Origin: Bacteroidota bacterium
GTDB taxonomy: Bacteria > Bacteroidota > Ignavibacteria > OLB7
Direction: 5' to 3'
NCBI GenBank assembly: GCA_018266795.1
Contig: JAFDZV010000012.1
Span: 62,001 to 126,000, forward strand
Length of the DNA: 64,000 bases
Part shown: positions 41,193 through 53,183 of the stretch, piece after piece
Layout of the letters: the number at the start of each line of letters is the position of its first letter
Numbering within the stretch: position 1 is the stretch's first letter
Translations under genes and position numbers: made by a program
The notes under the pieces: model-generated
What the model saw: the letters and a program-made list of their open reading frames with translations, nothing else
Database searches by the model: none
Told to the model about the DNA's origin: nothing

Positions 41193-41319
41193 TCTCGGAA
41201 CGGTGGTTTCCGGCACATACGGAATGACGGTTCCGGTGAGAATGGTGGCCCGATGATGTGTTTACAGGATGACCGGATGTGCGTGACGATTGAACGCTAT
41301 TAGCACGGCCCAATCAACG

Positions 41320-42966
41320 ATGAGCAACAGCATACGATATGGATCGCAACACGATACGCCGCGCGCGCGATTCGCCGCGGCAGTGCTGCTCGCCGCGTTC
41401 CTGGTTTCCTGGGCACTCCCCTCATCCACACAGGCACAGCCCGCGCGTTCCGAGGTGATGACGAGCCAGACCAGCGCAATCGAATTCTACGCCTCCAACT
41501 ACGGCGAGTTCGGCGTCAACGTGGCGACGGGCGGCGCCGGTTTCTTCTATCCGCGTGGAAGCCACAATCAATACATGTTCGGATCGGGTCTCTGGTTCGG
41601 CGCCATCAAGAACGTGAACAGCGTCCCGACGAAACTCTTTTTCCTGACCTACAATCCGAACAGCGGCGCAAGCTGGGCAACGCCGGGCGAGCGAAGCGAC
41701 TACGTTTCGTACGCACCGCTCTACAACTCCAACGATTACGATCTCAAGACCGGTGCGAACATCAAACCGGGAACTCCTCCCTACCGGATGCAGAGCTGGC
41801 CGCTCTGGCTGGTCAACGGCGGGATCAAGCCGGCGCCGCTCTCTCCCGGAATTTTCGTAGCGGACACGGCACTGCGCAAGGTTGGCGCGCTCCCGAAATC
41901 GCTGCCGGCTTTCATGCCCGGCGTGCAGGAGCAGATGATGGCGCGCTTCAACGATGCCGACATGCAGCAATACGAGCTCCGCGACACCGCTCAGCGCGTT
42001 GGATACCCGCTGGGGCTGCAGATACAGCAGAATATTTATTCCTGGAATATCGGGCGATTCCAGAACGTTGTTCTGCTGCAGTACGACATCATCAATTCCT
42101 CCCGCGATACGCTGCACGACTGCGTTGTTGCACAGGCCAGCGACCCCGATATCGGCAACAACTCCAACGACCATGTCCGGTATTACGAGGAGGCACCCGA
42201 GCTCCGTTCCGCGTATGCATGGACCGATCCGGAGGAGAAGAAGTATGCGGCACTCGTCATGACGTTGATCGAGGCGCCCACGACCAACGACGATGGATTT
42301 ATCGACAACAGAAATCGGATGAAATACCGGGTGGAGGGACGCATCGGCACGTTCCCGCACTGGACGGTGGAAATGGATCCCACAACGCTGAGCCAGCGCT
42401 ACGATTTCATGACCATGCCGGATTTCACCGTTGATGACAGGGCTTCCGATATTCGCGCATTGCTCGCCAGTACGAAGTTTTCCATGAAGCCGGGAGATAC
42501 GGCGCACTATGCGATGGCATACATAGTACTGGACAGCATCCCGGAATACGGACGCGCGCTGTACGGCGGCGAACCCCATCGGACGCTGGCGAAACTCCCA
42601 ACCCGGTCGGCACAACTCGAGGCCACCGTTGGCGCGCTGCTCGACGCCTATTACCTGAAGGGTTTCGACGAACCCTCGGCGGTCCCATCCGTGTGGGAGA
42701 ATGCAAACGGTATTCGCATCGCATCGATGCCGAACCCTGCTCGCGACGCCACGGTGCTCGCGTTCGCACTTCCACAGGGCGGCGATGCCAGCATCCGGCT
42801 GACCGATGCGCTTGGCCGCACGGTGATGGAGCGCAGCCTGGGGCACCTCGAGGCTGGGTCCTATCGGGAGACGATTGATCTCTCCGCACTCCCGGCCGGC
42901 TTCTACATGGCGGCCGTAAATTCCGGAGGCGCCGTGTCCGCTATGCGCCTTATCGTCACGAAATAG
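41320..42966 (+). CDS. T9SS-secreted protein, family C copy 1
   Basis: A 548-residue exported protein; ATG 41320 precedes a signal peptide ending SSTQAQ. The mature part has blocks shared with the next gene: EFYASNYGEFGVNVATGGAG, FYPRGSHNQYMFGSGLWFG, YNPNSGASWATPGE, SWPLWL, MPGVQEQMMARFNDADMQQY and IQQNIYSWN. A motif DPDIGNNSNDHVRYYEE follows. The C-terminal 80 residues form a T9SS type A-like sorting domain (RIASMPNPARDATVLAFALP, DLSALPAGFYMAAVNSG). Its function is unknown; I do not recognise the family. It and the next gene form a tandem pair of paralogues. Confidence 0.82.
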   Translation: MSNSIRYGSQHDTPRARFAAAVLLAAFLVSWALPSSTQAQPARSEVMTSQTSAIEFYASNYGEFGVNVATGGAGFFYPRGSHNQYMFGSGLWFGAIKNVNSVPTKLFFLTYNPNSGASWATPGERSDYVSYAPLYNSNDYDLKTGANIKPGTPPYRMQSWPLWLVNGGIKPAPLSPGIFVADTALRKVGALPKSLPAFMPGVQEQMMARFNDADMQQYELRDTAQRVGYPLGLQIQQNIYSWNIGRFQNVVLLQYDIINSSRDTLHDCVVAQASDPDIGNNSNDHVRYYEEAPELRSAYAWTDPEEKKYAALVMTLIEAPTTNDDGFIDNRNRMKYRVEGRIGTFPHWTVEMDPTTLSQRYDFMTMPDFTVDDRASDIRALLASTKFSMKPGDTAHYAMAYIVLDSIPEYGRALYGGEPHRTLAKLPTRSAQLEATVGALLDAYYLKGFDEPSAVPSVWENANGIRIASMPNPARDATVLAFALPQGGDASIRLTDALGRTVMERSLGHLEAGSYRETIDLSALPAGFYMAAVNSGGAVSAMRLIVTK

Positions 42967-43005
42967 AAAGCGTCTCGCACAGAGGTTCTCCACACCTCAA
43001 AGGCT

Positions 43006-43050
43006 CACGGGCTTCATTTCCGGAAACGGAAGTGAAGCCCGTGTGATTTT
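43006..43050 (+). terminator. Rho-independent terminator after family C copy 1
   Basis: CACGGGCTTCA (43006-43016) pairs perfectly with TGAAGCCCGTG (43033-43043), followed by TGATTTTT. Position, stem and T-run make a good intrinsic terminator, so the two family C genes are separately terminated. Confidence 0.85.
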
Positions 43051-43194
43051 TCGGTGCCGATGGCGCACCTGCGGCACGCCATGCCGTTCACACTACCATG
43101 CACTTCCATTGGCATGATAATTATTTGCCTTGCAACTGAGAAGATTATCGGCGGCGATTGTTGGATGTATGGTACCAAGTTCAACGGACGTTGA

Positions 43195-43211
43195 GTTAAG
43201 GAGCGCTTAAC
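43195..43211 (+). promoter_or_regulatory. Dyad upstream of family C copy 2
   Basis: The inverted repeat GTTAAG-GAGCG-CTTAAC lies about 35 bases upstream of ATG 43245, within the likely promoter/leader region. TGGAGGA nine bases before the ATG is the ribosome-binding site. The dyad could be an operator; no partner is known. Confidence 0.35.
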
Positions 43212-43244
43212 AGAAACGTATATCAATACTGGAGGAATTACCTC

Positions 43245-44834
43245 ATGACACGATTACTTGCCACGATCTGCATAATGCTTGCGATCGCGATGTCGAGTAC
43301 TTCGGCGCAGTTCCCGGTGTTCGAGGCGAGAGAGTCCATCGCCAGCAGCGTGGAATATTACGCTACCAATTTCGGCACGTTCGGACTGAACGCTGCAACC
43401 AACCAGTCCGGCTTCGTATATCCGCGCGGCAGCGGCAGGCAGTACATCTTCGGTGCCGGTCTGTGGTTCGGATGCAAGAAGATGGTGCAGGGAGCGCTCC
43501 AACCGGCGGTGTTCGTAACGTACAATCCCAACTCCGGAGCCAGTTGGGCATACCCGGGCGAGAGCGACAGCTCTTCGCCAACAACGCAGCTCTTCAACTC
43601 GGTGGAATACGATCACCAGACCGGCGCCTACAACGGAGTACGCACACCGGCAATGGTTGAACACTGGCCGCTCTGGCTGTTGCCGGGTATGAAGCCCGGT
43701 CCGCTCAGCGAGGGGACCTACGAGCCTGTGGAGGCGGACCGCTCTGCGAACGGCAACAAGTACTACTCCGGCCCGGCATTCATGCCCGGTGTGGACGAGC
43801 AGTTCGTGGCGCGTTTTCACGACGGCAATCTCTCGCGATACGAGATGGGACCGAAGGAGACGGCCGGCATCTTTCCAATCGGACTGCAGATGCAGCAGAA
43901 CATCTACAGTTGGTCCACCGGGCCGTTCCAGTCCACCGTGGTGCTTCAGTACAGGATCGAGAACGTCTCCGGCACGACGCTCTACGACTGCGTGGCCTCC
44001 GGCATCGAGGACATCGACATCGGCAACCCCGCCAACGATCAGTGCCGCTTCTATTCGGAGCACCCGGAGTTGCGGACGGGATATTGCTGGAGCGATCCGA
44101 AGGACTCCATGGGCAGAGGATCCGGTGCGGTTGCGGTAACATTGATCGAGGCGCCGATGACCGATGCCAAGGGCTTCGTGGACAACAGCCGGCGCGCGGA
44201 GTTCATGCTCAAGGGGCGCGTTTCAACGTACAGGTCGTACGGTGTGACGGAGGATCCCGTGAACTCCGTGGAACGGTATGCATTCATGACCTCCGGCAAG
44301 CTGGATGGCGACAAGGGGCCGATGGACGTACGGAACTGCATCAGCGGCCAGAGCTTCAGCATGCATCCCGGCGATGTGGCATACTTCACGGTTGCCTATA
44401 CCGTTGTGGGTCACGTTCCGGAGATGGGCAAGGCCGGGCATGGCGGAATCACCGTTCCGGCTTCCGGCGGAGCAACGGAGTTGGAAGGGATACTCACCCC
44501 GTTGATGCAGGCGTACTTCGGCACGGGGGGGTTCGAGAACGTTGCCGCCGTCCCGGTCACCGGCACCACACGGGCCAACGGAACGCTCACGGCGCTTCCC
44601 AACCCGGCCACGTCGAACCTGACGCTTCGCTTCGCGATCGATGAGCCATCCGAGGTCAGCATCGATCTCGTGAACACACTCGGCGCAACGGTGCTGACGA
44701 AGTCGCTCGGCATGATGTCCGCAACGGAGCATGAGGAACGGCTGGATTGTTCCACGCTGCCGGCCGGGCTGTATCTGGCAACGATACGCTACGCCGGCGG
44801 GCGCGTCACGACGCAGTGCGTGATAGCGCACTGA
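43245..44834 (+). CDS. T9SS-secreted protein, family C copy 2
   Basis: A 529-residue paralogue of the upstream gene. Signal peptide MTRLLATICIMLAIAMSSTSAQ, then the same blocks: YYATNFGTFGLNAATNQSG, YPRGSGRQYIFGAGLWFG, YNPNSGASWAYPGE, HWPLWLLPGMKPGPLSEGTY, MPGVDEQFVARFHDGNLSRY, MQQNIYSWS, and DIDIGNPANDQCRFYSEHPE. It ends with a T9SS type A-like domain (LTALPNPATSNLTLRFAIDE, DCSTLPAGLYLATIRYAGG). GGAGGAATT before the ATG is a good ribosome-binding site. Two cysteines near CVASGIEDIDIGN and QCRF might pair. Its function is unknown. Confidence 0.82.
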   Translation: MTRLLATICIMLAIAMSSTSAQFPVFEARESIASSVEYYATNFGTFGLNAATNQSGFVYPRGSGRQYIFGAGLWFGCKKMVQGALQPAVFVTYNPNSGASWAYPGESDSSSPTTQLFNSVEYDHQTGAYNGVRTPAMVEHWPLWLLPGMKPGPLSEGTYEPVEADRSANGNKYYSGPAFMPGVDEQFVARFHDGNLSRYEMGPKETAGIFPIGLQMQQNIYSWSTGPFQSTVVLQYRIENVSGTTLYDCVASGIEDIDIGNPANDQCRFYSEHPELRTGYCWSDPKDSMGRGSGAVAVTLIEAPMTDAKGFVDNSRRAEFMLKGRVSTYRSYGVTEDPVNSVERYAFMTSGKLDGDKGPMDVRNCISGQSFSMHPGDVAYFTVAYTVVGHVPEMGKAGHGGITVPASGGATELEGILTPLMQAYFGTGGFENVAAVPVTGTTRANGTLTALPNPATSNLTLRFAIDEPSEVSIDLVNTLGATVLTKSLGMMSATEHEERLDCSTLPAGLYLATIRYAGGRVTTQCVIAH

Positions 44835-45401: not shown

Positions 45402-46403
45402 ATGATGAAAACGCTACGAGCCACAGTGAACATTGCCCTTGCAGCGGGACTGCTGGCGGCAGGTGTTCTAGCCGGTTGCAAGTCGGATAACAATCCGACA
45501 ACAAACGTAGATCCTTCGGCCGACGTAACGCTGGCCGCACCTCCTGCCGGACAGGGCATTCAGGTGGTGCTCGGCCCGTTCACTGTTCCGGCTGGTACGG
45601 AAGTGCAGAGGAACTTCTATCAGAAGCTTCCCACCACTGAGGACATCTACGTGAACAAGATTGAATTCAAGTTCAATCCGGGAAGTCATCATTTCAACGT
45701 GTTCAAGAGCGACTCCGTGAACCTCAAGGATACGATCATCGACAGCTTCAGCGCGCTGCAGTGGGAGAACTGGGACATGGTAGGCGCTTCGCAGCGAAGC
45801 GACTACGTATGGCAGCTTCCTCCGGGCGTGGCGATCAAGCTGAGCGCCGGCGAGCAGATGGACTTCCAGACGCACTATGTGAACGCGGGAACACAGAGCA
45901 CCCCCTCGGGCCGCGGCAAGGCGATCGTCAACTTCTGGACGATCGACAAGAGCCAGGTGACCAATACGGTTGGCGCGATCTTCTCGAACAACAAGACGCT
46001 CGACATCCAGCCGCACACCTCCGCCACGTATTGCAAGGTGGTGAAGACGGTCGATCACGACGTGATGCTGCTCCTGATGACCGGCCACTTCCACAGCCGT
46101 GGCAAGACGTTCACGGTTGGCCACTGGGATGGCAAGAAGCTGAAGGATACGATCTACAACAGCGCGAACTGGAGCGATCCTCCCATTGTGCAGTATGCAA
46201 CGCCGTTGCTGCTGCGCGCGAACGACAGCATCGCCTACATCACGACCTTCGAGAACAACACCGATACGGAGATCAAGTTCGGTCCGCATGTGGAGGTCGA
46301 GGAGCACGCGAATCTCTTCACGTTCTATTATCCGGGTCCGGCAGGCAGCAAGGCGATCTACGACTTCACGGGCGGCTTCCTGATGGAATCGCACCCGATC
46401 TAA
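45402..46403 (+). CDS. Lipoprotein resembling copper type II ascorbate-dependent monooxygenases
   Basis: A 333-residue lipoprotein (lipobox LAGC, Cys26) with the metal-ligand pattern of the peptidylglycine alpha-hydroxylating monooxygenase (PHM) fold. GSHHFNVFK at 95-103 gives the paired His of the first copper site, FQTHYVNAG (H158) its third ligand. MTGHFHSRGKTFTV (H229, H231) matches the H-x-H of the second copper site. The methionine ligand of that site cannot be assigned by eye. PHM-type enzymes hydroxylate C-H bonds using copper, oxygen and a reductant; the bacterial members are little studied. It is first in a probable operon with an outer-membrane barrel (16 bases on) and a haem lipoprotein. 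It may act at the cell surface or in the periplasm. The start is ATG 45402 or 45405. Confidence 0.72.
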   Translation: MMKTLRATVNIALAAGLLAAGVLAGCKSDNNPTTNVDPSADVTLAAPPAGQGIQVVLGPFTVPAGTEVQRNFYQKLPTTEDIYVNKIEFKFNPGSHHFNVFKSDSVNLKDTIIDSFSALQWENWDMVGASQRSDYVWQLPPGVAIKLSAGEQMDFQTHYVNAGTQSTPSGRGKAIVNFWTIDKSQVTNTVGAIFSNNKTLDIQPHTSATYCKVVKTVDHDVMLLLMTGHFHSRGKTFTVGHWDGKKLKDTIYNSANWSDPPIVQYATPLLLRANDSIAYITTFENNTDTEIKFGPHVEVEEHANLFTFYYPGPAGSKAIYDFTGGFLMESHPI

Positions 46404-46418
46404 TACCGGACGCAACAA

Positions 46419-47345
46419 ATGAATCTCGTGCATATGACGCAACGTCACGGGAGGCTGATGGCTCTCGTGACGTTGCTTGTTGTTAGCCTCACATATCATG
46501 CCCATGCCGGCGGAGCCTGGGTGGATTCGCTCGGACGTGGAAGCATTCGCCTGGGCTACGACTGGAAGCTGCAGCCCGGCGCATTGCGCTACGATACGCA
46601 CGGTGACCTGTATCGCTCGCTTTTCAACATGACGCACGACTACCGCTTCCTGTATGCAGGGGGCGAGGTAGGGCTGGGCTGGAGGCTGGAGGCATCATTC
46701 CTGGTTACCTACCTGTGGGCCAGGGAGATCGTGGACAGCACGGCGGAGGATCCGTCGCGGATCTATCATGGCCCAAGCGACATGTGGCTGGGGTTGAAAT
46801 ACCAGATAGTGGACGGTGATTATCCGATTGCCGTTGGCGCCACCGTGCGCCTCCCAAATCTGTATGAAGCGAACAGTACGCTCAACGGGCAACTCCTGAC
46901 GGAGATTACCGGACTGCTGGGGCACGATTACGAGGCGAGCGTCTATGCATCGCACTCGTTCAATTCGAGCCTCTATGCATCCGCCTCTCTGGGAGGCCGA
47001 ATCCGGGACGGTGCCTCGGCGAATCAGGTTCTGTACGGTGCGGACGCCGGCTACACGATACCGATTCTCGGCGATCGAATCTCGGTGCGCGCCGGGTTCG
47101 ACGGTGTTGCAAGCGTTGGAGAACCGCGGCCTTCAACCGCGAAGGACCGCTTCCCCGGCCTCTCGCTGGAACGTGACAATCACTTTTTCGACTTCAACGA
47201 CGCCAGCTACTTTCGCCCGCAGCTCGGCATGTCCATACGAGTGCTTCCCACGCTCGAGATCAATGGAGGCTTTGCCTACATTCTCTGGGCTCACAGCAGC
47301 GTTCTCTATCAGGACTTCCTTCTCCAAGTAGGCTACTCGTTCTAA
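46419..47345 (+). CDS. Outer-membrane beta-barrel protein, unknown family
   Basis: A 308-residue exported protein. A signal peptide (ALVTLLVVSLTYHAHAG) precedes alternating amphipathic strands throughout (IRLGYDWKLQPGALRYDTHG, LEASFLVTYLWAREIV, YASASLGGRIRDGAS, SIRVLPTLEINGGFAYILW). The C-terminal residue is Phe (LLQVGYSF), the usual signature of outer-membrane barrels. It may correspond to the porin-like proteins often paired with c-type cytochromes. It starts 16 bases after the copper-type gene and the CX4CH lipoprotein follows 7 bases after its stop, so one operon is likely. Confidence 0.75.
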   Translation: MNLVHMTQRHGRLMALVTLLVVSLTYHAHAGGAWVDSLGRGSIRLGYDWKLQPGALRYDTHGDLYRSLFNMTHDYRFLYAGGEVGLGWRLEASFLVTYLWAREIVDSTAEDPSRIYHGPSDMWLGLKYQIVDGDYPIAVGATVRLPNLYEANSTLNGQLLTEITGLLGHDYEASVYASHSFNSSLYASASLGGRIRDGASANQVLYGADAGYTIPILGDRISVRAGFDGVASVGEPRPSTAKDRFPGLSLERDNHFFDFNDASYFRPQLGMSIRVLPTLEINGGFAYILWAHSSVLYQDFLLQVGYSF

Positions 47346-47351
47346 CACCAG

Positions 47352-47795
47352 ATGAGAGTAATCAGATGCGCGGCGATCACTGCCGCAATACCGATGGCGC
47401 TTGCCTTGGTGATTGCATGCACCGGGTGCAGCAGCTCGACAAACCCCGGCGTCACCGTTGAACCCAAGTTCTCCAGCATCCAGGCGAACATCTTCAACCT
47501 CAACTGTACAACAGCGTCGTGCCACGGTGCGCTGGGCAATCGTGGCGGCATGATTCTCGAGGGCTCCGTTGCCTACAACAACCTCGTTGGCGTGGTGCCG
47601 GAGAACGACTCCGCGAAGGCCCGGCACCTTCTCCGCGTCTTTCCGGGAAAGCCGGACAGCAGCTTCATCATCTACAAGCTTACCGGTCCGCGCTCCGGTG
47701 AGGGGGATCCGATGCCGAAAACCGGCACCAGCCTGGACCCGCAGCAGATCGAGGCGATCCGCACTTGGATTGCAAACGGTGCAAAGAACGATTAG
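47352..47795 (+). CDS. c-type cytochrome-like lipoprotein with CX4CH motif
   Basis: A 147-residue protein. The signal peptide ends VIACTGCSSS, a lipobox, so it is lipid-anchored. IFNLNCTTASCHGALG holds C52-x4-C57-H58, a haem-attachment motif with four rather than two residues between the cysteines; such CX4CH sites occur in some multihaem and envelope cytochromes. A C-terminal segment DPMPKTGTSLDPQQIEAIRT ends in a tail resembling small mono-haem domains, with Met in PMPK as a possible axial ligand. It probably serves as an electron donor for the copper protein upstream. That partnership is inference from gene order. Confidence 0.75.
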   Translation: MRVIRCAAITAAIPMALALVIACTGCSSSTNPGVTVEPKFSSIQANIFNLNCTTASCHGALGNRGGMILEGSVAYNNLVGVVPENDSAKARHLLRVFPGKPDSSFIIYKLTGPRSGEGDPMPKTGTSLDPQQIEAIRTWIANGAKND

Positions 47796-47818
47796 GCAGC
47801 TGGCCATTTGTCTGTGAT

Positions 47819-47853
47819 CCGTAGTCGGCAACAATCGATGCGGCCGACTACGG
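47819..47853 (+). terminator. Hairpin after the copper/haem operon
   Basis: CCGTAGTCGGC (47819-47829) and GCCGACTACGG (47843-47853) form a perfect 11-bp stem about 23 bases after the cytochrome stop. No T-tract follows (ATTACC), so it may stabilise the 3' end or act with Rho. Confidence 0.6.
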
Positions 47854-48139
47854 ATTACCATCAACCGGTTACCGATTCCACCATCATCGCATTGCGACGT
47901 TTCCCGGCCGCGACGGTCATACTTCATCCACAGTGATCCCGCCATTGCTGCGCCAGCCGCACACCGATCCGTGGTTCGTCAACAGGTTCCGGAAGTTCCC
48001 GGCACGTGCCGTTGCAAGGCCCGTGGGCACCGATACGCATCCGGCCTCGAGGAGAGAACCATCGGGTTTCGCAGGGCACCTCCCTGCACCCGGCATTCAG
48101 AACGTCCGGCAATGGCAACGACCGTAACCGGCCAGGACA
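47854..48139. other. Intergenic region before the porin-like gene
   Basis: Nearly 300 bases with no supported gene. GGCCAGGACA just before ATG 48140 is a weak ribosome-binding site. No promoter boxes are clear. Confidence 0.35.
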
Positions 48140-48937
48140 ATGACCAACACCCACTCCCTCTTCGCGGCCGGCCTGCTTGCCGCCGCAGTCATGTGTTGCA
48201 TCGGCGCTCGGCGTGCAACGGCTCAACTGGCTCCGAGCATGATCGGCGATCGGCCGGGGCAGGTGGAATCCATGACGACGCCGGAAACGATCCAGTTGGA
48301 GAGCGGCGTCTCGTACGAATCGAGGCGCAGCGCCGTGCCGGTGAAGCAGTGCGATCGTTCATGGGTAGCCGGCACACTTCTCCGCAGCGGGATGTTGAAT
48401 GAAGCGGAACTTCGGATCGGCTTCGAGTACGCCAGCGAGGCTTCCCGGATCAGCTCCGAGATCAACAGGGATCACGGCCTGCGCAATCTCTCCATCGGAA
48501 CGAAGGTTCGGCTGCTCGACACCACAGCCGGTGCACCTGCGCTCTATCTCTTCGCCAACGCACACATGCCCTTCGGTCAGGATGATTATCGTCCCGACGC
48601 AATCATACCCGGCATGCGACTGCAGATGGATTGCCCGTTCTTCAACGAGGCTGCAATGCTTTCGTGCAGCCTGGGCGGCGAGTGGCGCGTCGGCTCCTAC
48701 GACATGATCTCCGGCTATACCACAACGCTCGCCGTTCCGCTCGCATCCGGATTCTCGATGTTCGGTGACATCTCCGGACAGTTTACACTGGACGATTCTC
48801 CCGTCCACGTCTGCGACCTGGGCGTGGCATACGCCGTGCGCGAGTTCCTGGTGCTGGATTTCGCCGGCGGCATCGGCCTTACGCCAAACGCATCGGACTA
48901 CTTCTTCAGCGGCGGCATCTGCTGCCACCTGCCGTAG
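48140..48937 (+). CDS. Porin/transporter-like outer-membrane protein
   Basis: A 265-residue exported protein with a signal peptide ending RRATAQ. The mature protein is a series of amphipathic beta strands: TIQLESGVSYESRRSAVPVK, NEAELRIGFEYASEASR, ISSEINRDHGLRNLSIGTKV, LYLFANAHMPFGQDDYRPDA and VLDFAGGIGLTPNASDYFF. The order and the GTKVRLLD/HMPFG elements recall the phenol-degradation meta-pathway-like porin family (PF13557-type), whose members are of uncertain substrate. The C-terminus is unusual (ICCHLP, with two cysteines) rather than aromatic. It follows the haem lipoprotein by about 345 bases. Confidence 0.6.
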   Translation: MTNTHSLFAAGLLAAAVMCCIGARRATAQLAPSMIGDRPGQVESMTTPETIQLESGVSYESRRSAVPVKQCDRSWVAGTLLRSGMLNEAELRIGFEYASEASRISSEINRDHGLRNLSIGTKVRLLDTTAGAPALYLFANAHMPFGQDDYRPDAIIPGMRLQMDCPFFNEAAMLSCSLGGEWRVGSYDMISGYTTTLAVPLASGFSMFGDISGQFTLDDSPVHVCDLGVAYAVREFLVLDFAGGIGLTPNASDYFFSGGICCHLP

Positions 48938-49267: not shown

Positions 49268-49418
49268 AATAGATACTCGCTCGATCTGCGACAACCGGCG
49301 TCCGCGCGCGGCGAATCAGGCCGCCGGACAGGCTGTTCACGCACATCCGGATCGGACGGTGCGGAGGCACCCCCATGCCGTTGCGGAACGCCGGCGAGCG
49401 ACATCGAACTCTTCAGGC

Positions 49419-51779
49419 ATGCACTCCAATCCCAATTCAACGTCCCGTATGAGAAACTATCTCCCGAGTGTACTCCGCACGCACATGCCGCTGATCGCAG
49501 CGTTGTTCGTGACGGCGCTCCCTGCAACGGCGCAGACCGGCCGCATCGCGGGGCTTGTACGCAATGCCGAGACCGGCGAAGTGCTGGGCAACGTCTCGGT
49601 TGCCGTTCGTGGAACCACGATCGGTGCGAAGTCCCTCAGCAACGGCTCGCTCAACATCGCGAACGTCCCCACCGGCAGGCAGCACCTCGTAGCCACCGGC
49701 ATCGGCTTTCAAGCGGCGGAGCGTGACGTGACGGTAACCGACGGCGGCACGACAGGCGTCACGTTCGACATGATACCGCGCGACATCGAGTTCGGCGGCG
49801 TCACCGTATCCTCGCCCCGCGACCGAAGCTATGTCTCGATCCTTACCAGCGCGGGCACGAAGACTTCCACGCCTTTGCGCGACATCCCCGCATCCATTCA
49901 GGTGATACCGGAACTGGTATTGAAAGATCAGGGAGCAGCGTCGGTGGACCAGACCATCCGCAACGTAAGCGGCATCGTGCAGAGCAGCCAGAGCAACTAC
50001 GGATTCTTCAACAACTACACCGTGCGCGGCCTTCGCCAGCGTTTTCTGCGCGACGGCGTGCCTGACGGCCCTACAACGAACGGCTACGCACGCTCGCTCA
50101 CGGACGTGGATCACATTGAAGTGCTGAAGGGTCCCGGCTCCGCGCTGTACGGAAGCAGCGAGCCGGGTGGCTCCATCAACCTGGTAAGCAAACCGGTATA
50201 CGAAGCCCCCACACTGGTCGTATCGCAATCCGCCGGAAGCTTCAACTCGCTGCGGACAGCCCTGGATGCAGGCGGAGCGATTGTTCCCGGCACGCTCCGT
50301 TCCCGCGTCAGCGCGGACTACAGCACGAAGGAGGGCTATCGCGGGATCGGCAACACTACATTCGAGGTGCTCCCAATGCTCGTCTACAGCCCGTCGGACA
50401 ACCACACGCTTACGCTGAACATCGATTATCGGAAGGTGGATCAGGAGGCCGATCCCTACGGCACGCCCTTCCGCGGCACGCAGCTGCTGGACGTATCGCC
50501 GGAGTTCGACTATCACACACCGTTCGCAACTACCACGCAGAAGATGGTGCGCGGTTCGCTTGCCCATCTGTGGCGCGTGGGCGAGCCTGCAACGGTGCGG
50601 ACCTATCTCACCTTCATGAAGCGCGATCTGTATCTGCTGCGCAACTCCGGCGGCGCGATCGCGCCCAACAGCGACACCATGAGCGCTCGCGCGCTGCGCG
50701 AACAGACGGACAACGTCACGGACCTGCTTGCACAGATCGAGCCGATCTTCAAGACACGAACCGGGAGCATGGATCACACGATTCTCACCGGCATGGAGTA
50801 CTCGCGAAGCAGGATTCTCACACATCGCCAGACTGCCGCACTCCCATCCATCCTGAACGTGTTCGCGCCGGTAGCACGTGAGACATCGCGCGACAGCCTC
50901 ACCTTCAAGGTGGACAACGACCGCGACATCACGCTGAATCAGCTCGGCATCTATGCACAGGACCAGATCGCGATCAGCAGCCAGTTCAAGGTTCGCGGAG
51001 GAATGCGGTACGATATCTACGGTGCCAACGATATCCATCACACCGATACGCTCGGCAACAACCGGACCGATGAAAAGCTGAGCGGGCAGATCGGGCTGGT
51101 GTTCCAGCCCCTGACGGAGCTTTCGTTGTACGGCGGCGCCGCTCACGGGAGCCTTTCCACGGTCTCGACGGAGAGCGCACGCATTTCGGAGCCGGAGCAG
51201 TCCACGCAGTATGAACTGGGGAGCAGGACATCGTTGCTCGATGGTCTGGTGCAGTTGAACATCGCGGCGTTCTTCGTGACGCGCGAGCACTTCAACGTCA
51301 CGGTCGGCACGGAACAGATTCCGGTTGGAAAGCAGCGGACGCAGGGGATCGAGGTCGACATGAGCGGACAGCCGACGGAGTCGTGGGGGATAACCGGGAA
51401 CCTTGCCTACTACGATGCGAAGATCACGAACAACCCGGCCGATACCGGCGCAGTCGGCAAACGGCCGATCGGCGTGCCGGAGACATCCGGATCGCTCTGG
51501 AGCACCTATGCGTTCAAATCCGGATTCGCCGAGGGATTCGGTTTCGGCGCCGGCCTCACATATCGTGATGCGATGTATCTGGACGCCCACAACACACGCA
51601 GCATCGATGCCTATGTCACGCTGGATGGTACGCTGTTCTACCGTACCAGGCTGGTTGAGCTGCAGATCAACCTGACGAACATCGGCAACATGGTCTATTA
51701 CCGGAACGGCGTCAACTCCGGCGCGCTCCCCGGCGATCCGCGCAGTATCCAGGGGAGCATCCGGCTGAACCTCTGGTAA
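49419..51779 (+). CDS. TonB-dependent siderophore receptor
   Basis: A 786-residue outer-membrane receptor that imports ferric siderophores or similar complexes using TonB energy. After a signal peptide (LIAALFVTALPATAQ) an N-terminal carboxypeptidase-regulatory-like domain follows (GRIAGLVRNAETGEVLGNVS). The plug (about 140-260) has TPLRDIPASIQVIPELVLKD, YGFFNNYTVRGL and the family block VDHIEVLKGPGSALYGSSEP with GGSINLVSKP. The remaining 520 residues are a 22-strand-type barrel, ending SIRLNLW with a C-terminal aromatic. ATG 49419 and 49449 are both possible starts; neither has a clear Shine-Dalgarno sequence. The PepSY protein downstream and dyads upstream support an iron-acquisition role. 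Confidence 0.93.
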   Translation: MHSNPNSTSRMRNYLPSVLRTHMPLIAALFVTALPATAQTGRIAGLVRNAETGEVLGNVSVAVRGTTIGAKSLSNGSLNIANVPTGRQHLVATGIGFQAAERDVTVTDGGTTGVTFDMIPRDIEFGGVTVSSPRDRSYVSILTSAGTKTSTPLRDIPASIQVIPELVLKDQGAASVDQTIRNVSGIVQSSQSNYGFFNNYTVRGLRQRFLRDGVPDGPTTNGYARSLTDVDHIEVLKGPGSALYGSSEPGGSINLVSKPVYEAPTLVVSQSAGSFNSLRTALDAGGAIVPGTLRSRVSADYSTKEGYRGIGNTTFEVLPMLVYSPSDNHTLTLNIDYRKVDQEADPYGTPFRGTQLLDVSPEFDYHTPFATTTQKMVRGSLAHLWRVGEPATVRTYLTFMKRDLYLLRNSGGAIAPNSDTMSARALREQTDNVTDLLAQIEPIFKTRTGSMDHTILTGMEYSRSRILTHRQTAALPSILNVFAPVARETSRDSLTFKVDNDRDITLNQLGIYAQDQIAISSQFKVRGGMRYDIYGANDIHHTDTLGNNRTDEKLSGQIGLVFQPLTELSLYGGAAHGSLSTVSTESARISEPEQSTQYELGSRTSLLDGLVQLNIAAFFVTREHFNVTVGTEQIPVGKQRTQGIEVDMSGQPTESWGITGNLAYYDAKITNNPADTGAVGKRPIGVPETSGSLWSTYAFKSGFAEGFGFGAGLTYRDAMYLDAHNTRSIDAYVTLDGTLFYRTRLVELQINLTNIGNMVYYRNGVNSGALPGDPRSIQGSIRLNLW

Positions 51780-51793
51780 CAGACCGGCCGTTT

Positions 51794-51858
51794 CCTCTCC
51801 CGGCACCCGGGCTGCATGCGTCCTTCGGGGAGGGGGGCCATGCAGCGCCCGGGAGAGG
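51794..51858 (+). terminator. Long inverted repeat after the receptor gene
   Basis: CCTCTCCCGG...GCTGCATG (51794-51818) and CATGCAGC-GCCCGGGAGAGG (51839-51858) pair over about 18 bases, with a short bulge in the left arm. It starts 15 bases after the receptor stop. No T-tract follows. A terminator or mRNA-stability hairpin is likely; an element end is less likely. Confidence 0.45.
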
Positions 51859-52124
51859 GACAATCCAGGTTCCACAGAGGCGAGGGCTCCACACTCCCGA
51901 CGTGGTTCCAGTGCAGGACCGCCCGGCCGTCGATCTCCCTGGCCGGGTGGCCCTCACTGTCGCGAATTCCATGCAGGCGAATCGTCCGGGTGCGTGCATG
52001 CTCCGCACCGGACGGAATCCGATCATCCGGACGCCGGCCATGCACACGGGATGCCGTGGCACCGAAGGCGACTCGAAATACATACATGAGAACACGAAGA
52101 ATGCAATTCCCATCCCGCTCACAG
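51859..52124. other. Stretch between the receptor hairpin and the PepSY gene
   Basis: About 265 bases. The PepSY frame is open through all of it, with ATG codons at 51816, 52086 and 52101, but the encoded residues are Arg/Pro-rich and unlike the family, so I leave it non-coding. No convincing promoter was seen. Confidence 0.4.
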
Positions 52125-53183
52125 ATGAACAAACGGCTTCGTTCGCTTCACTCCTGGCTCGGCATCGCAAGCGGCGCATTCCTGCTCGTGATCGGCGCGG
52201 CAGGCGCCATGCTGGTGTTCACCGACGACATCGATGCCGCTCTCGATCCCGCAACCGATGTGACGCGCAGCGGCACGGCGCGCATCCCGCTCAACGATCT
52301 GCTCGCCGACGTGCGAACCACCTATCCGCAGGCATCGCTCACCGGCGTGCGCCTGCAACCGGAGCGGCCGGAGGCGGCATGCACGATCACCATGAACCTG
52401 CGCGGCTCCCTCTGGTTCGTTGAGATGGATCCGTACACCGGCGCGATACTCTCGACACGGAACATGAGCCGCTCCTTCATGCGCCAGGTACTGGCGCTGC
52501 ATCGCAGCTTCTTCTTCAGGCCGTGGGGCGAGGCCGCCGTTGGCCTGATTGCCATTCTCTTCTTCACGTCGGCACTGACCGGGCTCATCATTCATCGCCA
52601 TTCGCTTGCACGCATCTTCACCGTGATATCCCGATGGCGTTCCGGCACGAAGGCGCGCCCCTTCGATCTGCATACAACGGTCGGCACGCTGGCATGCCTG
52701 TTCCAACTGACGATGTCCGCAACCGGCTTCTACATGATCTCACCGGTATTCGGGCGAATCGTGACGGGGGCAGAGCAGGGAGCCGTCTGGATGCCGCTTC
52801 CGCGGCCGTCGCTGGACAGCCTCCTCACCACGGCGTCCCAGGCACTGCCTGGTTTCCAGCCGCGACTCATCTCGCTTCCCAACGCGCCCGGCAAACCGAT
52901 TCGCGTGGCGGGAGCCGTTGAAGGAGCATGCATCATGTACGGCAAGGCAGGCAGTACGGTAACATTCAATCCGGCGAGCGGCAGGATGTTGCAGGCGGTA
53001 GATATCGCAGACGCTCCCTTCGGGGAACAGGCCGAACAGATCGTGCGCTCGGTTCACTTCGGCCAGTACGGATCGTGGCCCGTCAAGGTGATCTATTCGC
53101 TCGGAGGCCTTACGCCGGGCGTGCTCTCGATCACCGGAGGGATCATGTGGTTCAGGAGGCGACGCGCCGCACGCCGCATGTGA
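52125..53183 (+). CDS. PepSY-associated transmembrane protein
   Basis: A 352-residue inner-membrane protein of the PepSY-TM family, often encoded next to siderophore receptors and thought to aid reduction or release of ferric iron. LRSLHSWLGIASGAFLLVIG opens the first membrane segment with the family's conserved His. VLALHRSFFFRPWGEAAVGL starts the second, followed by TGLIIHRHSLARIFTV. FDLHTTVGTLACLFQLTMSA gives the third, and LGGLTPGVLSITGGIMWFRR the last. The conserved histidines may bind haem, as in related cytochrome-like reductases. ATG 52125 is preferred because family members begin near this point; 52101 and 52086 are alternatives in frame. It lies about 345 bases after the receptor gene. 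Confidence 0.85.
   Translation: MNKRLRSLHSWLGIASGAFLLVIGAAGAMLVFTDDIDAALDPATDVTRSGTARIPLNDLLADVRTTYPQASLTGVRLQPERPEAACTITMNLRGSLWFVEMDPYTGAILSTRNMSRSFMRQVLALHRSFFFRPWGEAAVGLIAILFFTSALTGLIIHRHSLARIFTVISRWRSGTKARPFDLHTTVGTLACLFQLTMSATGFYMISPVFGRIVTGAEQGAVWMPLPRPSLDSLLTTASQALPGFQPRLISLPNAPGKPIRVAGAVEGACIMYGKAGSTVTFNPASGRMLQAVDIADAPFGEQAEQIVRSVHFGQYGSWPVKVIYSLGGLTPGVLSITGGIMWFRRRRAARRM

Follow-up and report, generated by a model that had tools for sequence, protein, structure and literature searches.

Three adjoining genes in the 64,000-nucleotide stretch of Bacteroidota DNA analysed here (the window) encode a copper-protein-like lipoprotein (A), a predicted beta-barrel (B) and a cytochrome (C), which raises the question of whether they work together as one redox system in the outer membrane. 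The genes are packed as tightly as the initial annotation described, with all three open reading frames co-directional, 15 nt between A and B and 6 nt between B and C (Table 1). Judged by eye rather than with a predictor, A and C have lipoprotein signals (LAGC and VIAC, respectively), and the N-terminal hydrophobic stretch of B ends in AHA-GG, which resembles a signal peptidase site.

Table 1. Features of the three-gene locus; positions are those of the window
Feature	Position	Strand	Product length
Gene A, predicted PHM/DBH-fold copper-protein lipoprotein	45402..46403	+	333 aa
Gene B, predicted outer-membrane beta-barrel, COG4313-like fold	46419..47345	+	308 aa
Gene C, predicted lipid-anchored mono-haem c-type cytochrome (CTTASCH, later Met in DPMP)	47352..47795	+	147 aa
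15-bp terminator-like hairpin with a T-rich tail, within the first codons of gene B	46439..46476	+	
16-nt inverted repeat directly 3' of gene C, lacking a T tract	47814..47858	+	

The inverted repeat behind gene C is likely the end of the transcript. The true start of B may be the in-frame ATG at 46434, because the homologue from the same genus (locus L017) has a GTG at the matching place. The hairpin over the start of B is very stable, and it is kept in this relative (around 8340-8375 of L017) with one compensatory base-pair change; it may damp B and C expression compared with that of A. The next gene downstream (48140-48937, Phenol_MetA_deg) begins 344 nt past C. This barrel was considered as part of the conserved set and set aside, as it has no homologue among the loci compared.

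Protein A is almost certainly homologous to peptidylglycine alpha-hydroxylating monooxygenase (PHM) and dopamine beta-hydroxylase (DBH), ascorbate-dependent monooxygenases of the copper type II class that produce peptide hormones and noradrenaline in animals. The AlphaFold2 model of A (pLDDT 79.3, pTM 0.77; 7 sequences) shows the two-domain PHM fold by both Foldseek and VIA. Foldseek matched it to PHM (8dsl; E 5.9e-13, TM 0.63/0.67) and to human DBH (E 1.4e-11), and VIA aligned 284 residues with rat PHM (Z 23.1, rmsd 3.6), the unrelated folds reaching Z values of at most 8.9 (PNGase-type folds come next after PHM). Identity to PHM/DBH is 13-14%. Single-sequence searches with A gave no useful match to Pfam, NCBIfam or PDB sequences; A itself has neither a PF03712 row nor an NCBIfam monooxygenase match, a PHROGs search matched nothing, and a first scan of genome contigs returned no relative. 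Relatives of A were found via whole-genome searching and profiles. The profile of 31 homologues matches rat PHM (E 1.1e-6) and human DBH (E 0.003), and the alignment with PHM covers the regions of H172, of H242 and H244 (HTHH) and of M314 (DEM). PF03712 (Cu2_monoox_C) is detected at E values up to 1 in 29 of these 31 aligned members, and one relative of the window's own subgroup (window-type, described below), L136, is above the cut-off of this family (25.0 vs 23). A profile built from window-type sequences only yielded nothing credible in the PDB (a single match at E 1.1), and the homology therefore rests on the mixed profile together with the model.

The initial annotation saw in A a PHM-like copper protein with HH, H and HxH ligands in place, and this is what we find for five of the ligands. 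H96, H97 and H158 provide the His-His plus His set of CuH in 31 of 31 aligned copper domains, the equivalence of the HH pair resting on order and fold since the PHM pair falls outside the printed profile alignment, and H229 and H231 provide the HxH of CuM. All five, as well as E301, are invariant in the 31 domains, and the five His are among the 15 invariant columns of the alignment. Loss of copper ligands in homologues, which had been named beforehand as grounds for rejecting the proposal, was not seen for the His ligands. What had been overlooked is the CuM Met: in our alignments His302 of A occupies the column of Met314, and the DEM of PHM and of the bacterial cytochrome fusions is EEH in the window. 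A second subfamily-specific His (His296) is invariant in the eight window-type sequences aligned, and the motif G(P/G)H...EH.N.F is found in all 15 full-length window-type proteins. PHM engineered to M314H is inactive; our search of the open-access literature on M314H PHM found nothing. Arg240 of PHM binds substrate, and both profile and profile-profile alignments place Thr227 of A at this position. The copper-binding residues of PHM, with H107, H108 and H172 among them, show perfect conservation between Chlamydomonas and human (PMC6123673). Thus, judged from the alignments, the His302 of A is a marked departure from PHM. Given this altered CuM, we do not call A a PHM, but a homologue with a changed CuM site.

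How far this change extends is seen from the distribution of the relatives. Of 61 near genomes, 9 have a match to A, as do 22 of 395 from the phylum; in the class, 11 of 294 have a window-type match (at least 320 bits). The three samples overlap. Window-type proteins were also found in two of the 64 genomes searched in Candidatus Latescibacterota (L074, and L193 of the same phylum) and in one of 294 genomes in the phylum of L076 (Planctomycetia), which has two copies at 400 and 299 bits. When reading frames sharing their last 120 residues are counted once, there are 91 proteins, comprising 15 full-length and one partial with the His, 56 with the Met (Met-type), 16 weak matches and three unassigned (L021 and L028, cut at contig ends, and L199, which lacks the motif). 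In a phylogenetic tree that left out 14 of 85 rows, each shorter than 255 residues, the 15 proteins with His302 and His296 form one clade (support 100) against the 56 Met-type proteins, a split that is slightly favoured by the few columns kept that define the label. The branch lengths (0.88 and 0.69) indicate that it does not rest on two columns.

The His-rich CuM (H229, H231, H302 and perhaps H296) also allows another reading of A, as no oxygenase but a copper redox relay, a reductase or a protein of copper acquisition, with C as an electron carrier and B as a channel for copper or a ligand. Such a function would suit the Met-to-His change and the new His, which occur together in 8/8 aligned and, by motif, 15/15 full-length window-type proteins. 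However, the other five PHM ligands are invariant, among them the CuH set, for which a simple copper carrier would have no use; in addition, a copper-transport gene was not recognised among the neighbours scanned. We regard this reading as unlikely, though it deserves to be kept in mind. As for the copper monooxygenase first proposed, the PHM fold and the five His speak for it and the replaced CuM Met speaks against it, and because of this replacement we leave the monooxygenase label open; on our analysis, an oxygenase activity of A could go either way.

C is the candidate electron partner of A. Its CTTASCH is a CXnCH haem attachment motif of the CX4CH form (C52-H58) with an MP further on, and the genome has the machinery for c-type maturation (PF01578, three matches above cut-off). 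C is below the cut-offs of the Pfam cytochrome c families (16.3 vs 27 for PF13442 and 16.9 vs 21.3 for PF00034). With the VIAC signal, the motif agrees with the lipid-anchored CX4CH cytochrome originally described. CX4CH was also considered as a hallmark of the system and rejected, as the Met-type proteins have CX4CH in 27 cases, CX2CH in 23 and CX3CH in three, and L136 has CX5CH.

The pairing of cytochrome and copper domain recurs well outside the window. In 53 of the 56 Met-type bacterial relatives, one chain holds both a C-like cytochrome and the A-like domain; the others are two stand-alone proteins of one genus (L056 and L119) and one from a short locus (L133). Among the window-type proteins (15 full-length, from 14 genomes), 11 have a cytochrome gene at most 4 kb away on their own strand; in nine of these cases it overlaps or lies within 1 kb. 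Two more, from planctomycetes, are fused to the cytochrome (one of the fused relatives, L076, has no MP motif after the haem motif), and the remaining two lie at contig ends, so that a partner is found in all 13 cases that can be assessed. Even the 16 very remote weak matches all have a CXnCH, and both of those scanned also have an AhpC-TSA domain. Together, the fusions, the linkage and the CXnCH of the remote matches show that bacterial proteins of the PHM fold generally come with a haem partner. Nothing else speaks as strongly for C as the redox partner of A, a partnership that we consider very probable. Linkage had been named at the outset as the check to be made, and the result is positive, with A and a cytochrome together in 13/13 assessable cases and all three genes together in four genomes. 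These data contradict a neighbourhood of three unrelated envelope proteins that adjoin by chance, for which we found no support; besides the fusions and the linkage, the cytochrome profile has three matches in the 6-Mb genome of the window and only C is strong (225 bits vs 47 and 37). We consider coincidence extremely improbable.

That the cytochrome supplies electrons to the copper protein, as initially suggested, has two parts. The partnership is strongly supported by the fusions, and the direction of flow we infer from PHM chemistry. Electrons could conceivably run in reverse, with A oxidising a substrate or a metal at the cell surface, C collecting the electrons for respiration and B acting as a conduit. 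A cytochrome and a copper site in one chain are silent on direction, and the cytochrome profile weakly matches the iron oxidase FoxE (E 0.0075), but this match consists of two weak stretches, and the PHM fold takes in electrons at CuH (PMC6123673). We thus consider reverse flow improbable and prefer C as the electron donor of A.

The third gene, B, was annotated as a beta-barrel, and the model agrees. The AlphaFold2 prediction (pLDDT 72.1, pTM 0.67; 4 sequences) has 12 long strands, as in COG4313-type barrels. VIA puts B closest to the COG4313 channel 4rl8 (Z 18.1, 237 residues aligned), and the top match by Foldseek is FapF (7.5e-10). The PF13557 (Phenol_MetA_deg) signature has no match in B, and the N-terminal segment (residues 23-35), which bears on the question of a plug, is modelled with pLDDT below 50. 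COG4313 proteins are 12-stranded channels implicated in the uptake of hydrophobic molecules (PMC4493636); B shares 11% identity with the COG4313 channel Pput2725 (4rl8), and differs from it in its operon partner.

In the class, 16 of 294 genomes have a match to the profile of B, in most cases a weak one. A barrel of this family lies beside A in four genomes, in the order A-B-C in the window and in G001 (same genus as the window) and B-A-C in L074 and L193, with gaps of 16-17 nt between B and A in the latter two. The four A proteins linked to a barrel form one clade (support 96). That the genes stay linked in two phyla although their order has changed speaks for a functional relationship within this clade. 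It is possible, on the other hand, that only the copper-cytochrome pair is a real unit and that B is an operon passenger with a role of its own. Barrel-B relatives occur without the pair in G555 and G004 and as second copies in G000 and G001, and no B-like barrel lies near any of the 11 remaining window-type proteins, among them the fusions; against this stand the tight linkage in four genomes and two phyla, the rearranged order and the match to one clade of A. We favour a functional B in this clade and think a mere passenger rather unlikely. The suggestion that the barrel gives passage to a substrate is plausible in so far as the fold of B is closest to a channel for hydrophobic uptake, and is weakened in that most relatives do without such a barrel; B as the substrate path is a tentative assignment that we hold to be somewhat doubtful.

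Nine window-type loci remain when the fusions and the four barrel loci are set apart, all without a B-type barrel. In six of them (L020, L023, L077/L135, L137, L139 and L140) a secreted protein of the FG-GAP/UnbV_ASPIC type adjoins the pair. The three of these neighbours that were scanned (L023, L139 and L140) all match those Pfam families, and they also match type IX secretion tails, one below the cut-off. The six loci suggest that the core of the system is A plus C and that the envelope partner varies by lineage. Beyond the cytochrome/copper/FG-GAP cluster, no cluster of neighbours recurs in more than four of the loci compared. In L020 the copper gene and the genes of the FG-GAP/UnbV_ASPIC type look tandemly repeated. 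Similar barrel-CarboxypepD_reg-OmpA proteins adjoin the cytochrome gene in L136 (4425-6038) and L020 (3255-4799).

A small outer-membrane redox unit, with C feeding A and B as a channel, is a reading to which we give even chances. In this unit, the periplasmic c-type pool would supply electrons to the haem presumably carried by C, from which they would go on to CuH and then CuM of a copper-loaded A. C would be the dedicated electron partner of A, in place of the soluble ascorbate of animals. The three-His CuH would serve for electron entry and the reworked, all-His CuM for oxygen and substrate, such that CuM could activate O2 and oxidise a small substrate. B would pass this substrate or its product, probably hydrophobic, over the outer membrane beside A and C; the side of the membrane and a physical complex of the three are presumed.

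Among known systems, A resembles PHM/DBH in the two-jelly-roll fold over the whole domain, the His-His plus His of CuH and the HxH of CuM. It differs in having His302 for the CuM Met, the extra His296, a lipoprotein signal and a cytochrome c partner. The Met-type cytochrome c-Cu2_monoox_C fusion lipoproteins of bacteria have the same two domains (copper domains, hhalign E 6e-46), but in a single chain, with Met at CuM and no family-B barrel beside them. The planctomycete AhpC-TSA/redoxin-CXXCH-Cu2_monoox_C proteins (the 16 weak matches) share the copper domain and the haem motif; they are very remote (below 37 bits), and the two scanned have added peroxiredoxin-like and EF-hand domains. The planctomycete-phylum proteins L177-L192 are about 400-720 aa long and combine CXXCH with a remote copper domain, the two scanned having AhpC-TSA and EF-hand. 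Lytic polysaccharide monooxygenases with a cytochrome partner are likewise copper oxygenases that receive electrons from a haem domain of their own, often in the same chain, but have an unrelated fold and mononuclear copper.

The initial annotation knew of no described system with this set of genes, and the open-access literature agrees: we found no description there of a bacterial PHM-cytochrome pair, and the titles retrieved under the names of copper type II monooxygenases were all eukaryotic. In the table of a copper-protein review, PHM and dopamine beta-monooxygenase stand in the eukaryote column only (PMC7435645). A appears to be a so far unrecognised, haem-driven form of an enzyme type whose known members are almost all eukaryotic. 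We tentatively propose, as a possibility that falls short of an even chance, a family of ascorbate-free, cytochrome-driven dicopper oxygenases of the PHM fold, with an all-His CuM, an outer-membrane location and a hydrophobic-substrate channel of their own, in the window's phylum, in Latescibacterota and as a planctomycete fusion. PHM/DBH are regarded as eukaryotic, ascorbate-driven and unchanging in their copper ligands. A bacterial branch wired to cytochrome c would, if real, be an alternative way of powering PHM/DBH chemistry, and a natural Met-to-His change at the oxygen-binding copper would be nature's own test of the role of the CuM thioether. It would also point to an undescribed cell-surface oxidation in little-studied bacteria.

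Several other genes were observed around these loci. In L074 (2421-4913; Latescibacterota) two more genes follow the cytochrome, one of which is a second barrel-B paralogue. A protein of the PAP2 superfamily lies 3' of the operon in G001 (L017, 9936-11279), and another lies 3' of a barrel-B paralogue in G004 (L144, 8728-10056); both resemble vanadium haloperoxidases. In the window, 41290-44834 encodes two consecutive, similar-looking proteins in which type IX secretion tails are the only known domains, and a TonB-dependent siderophore receptor and the PepSY_TM protein after it (49359-53183) are likely an iron-uptake pair.
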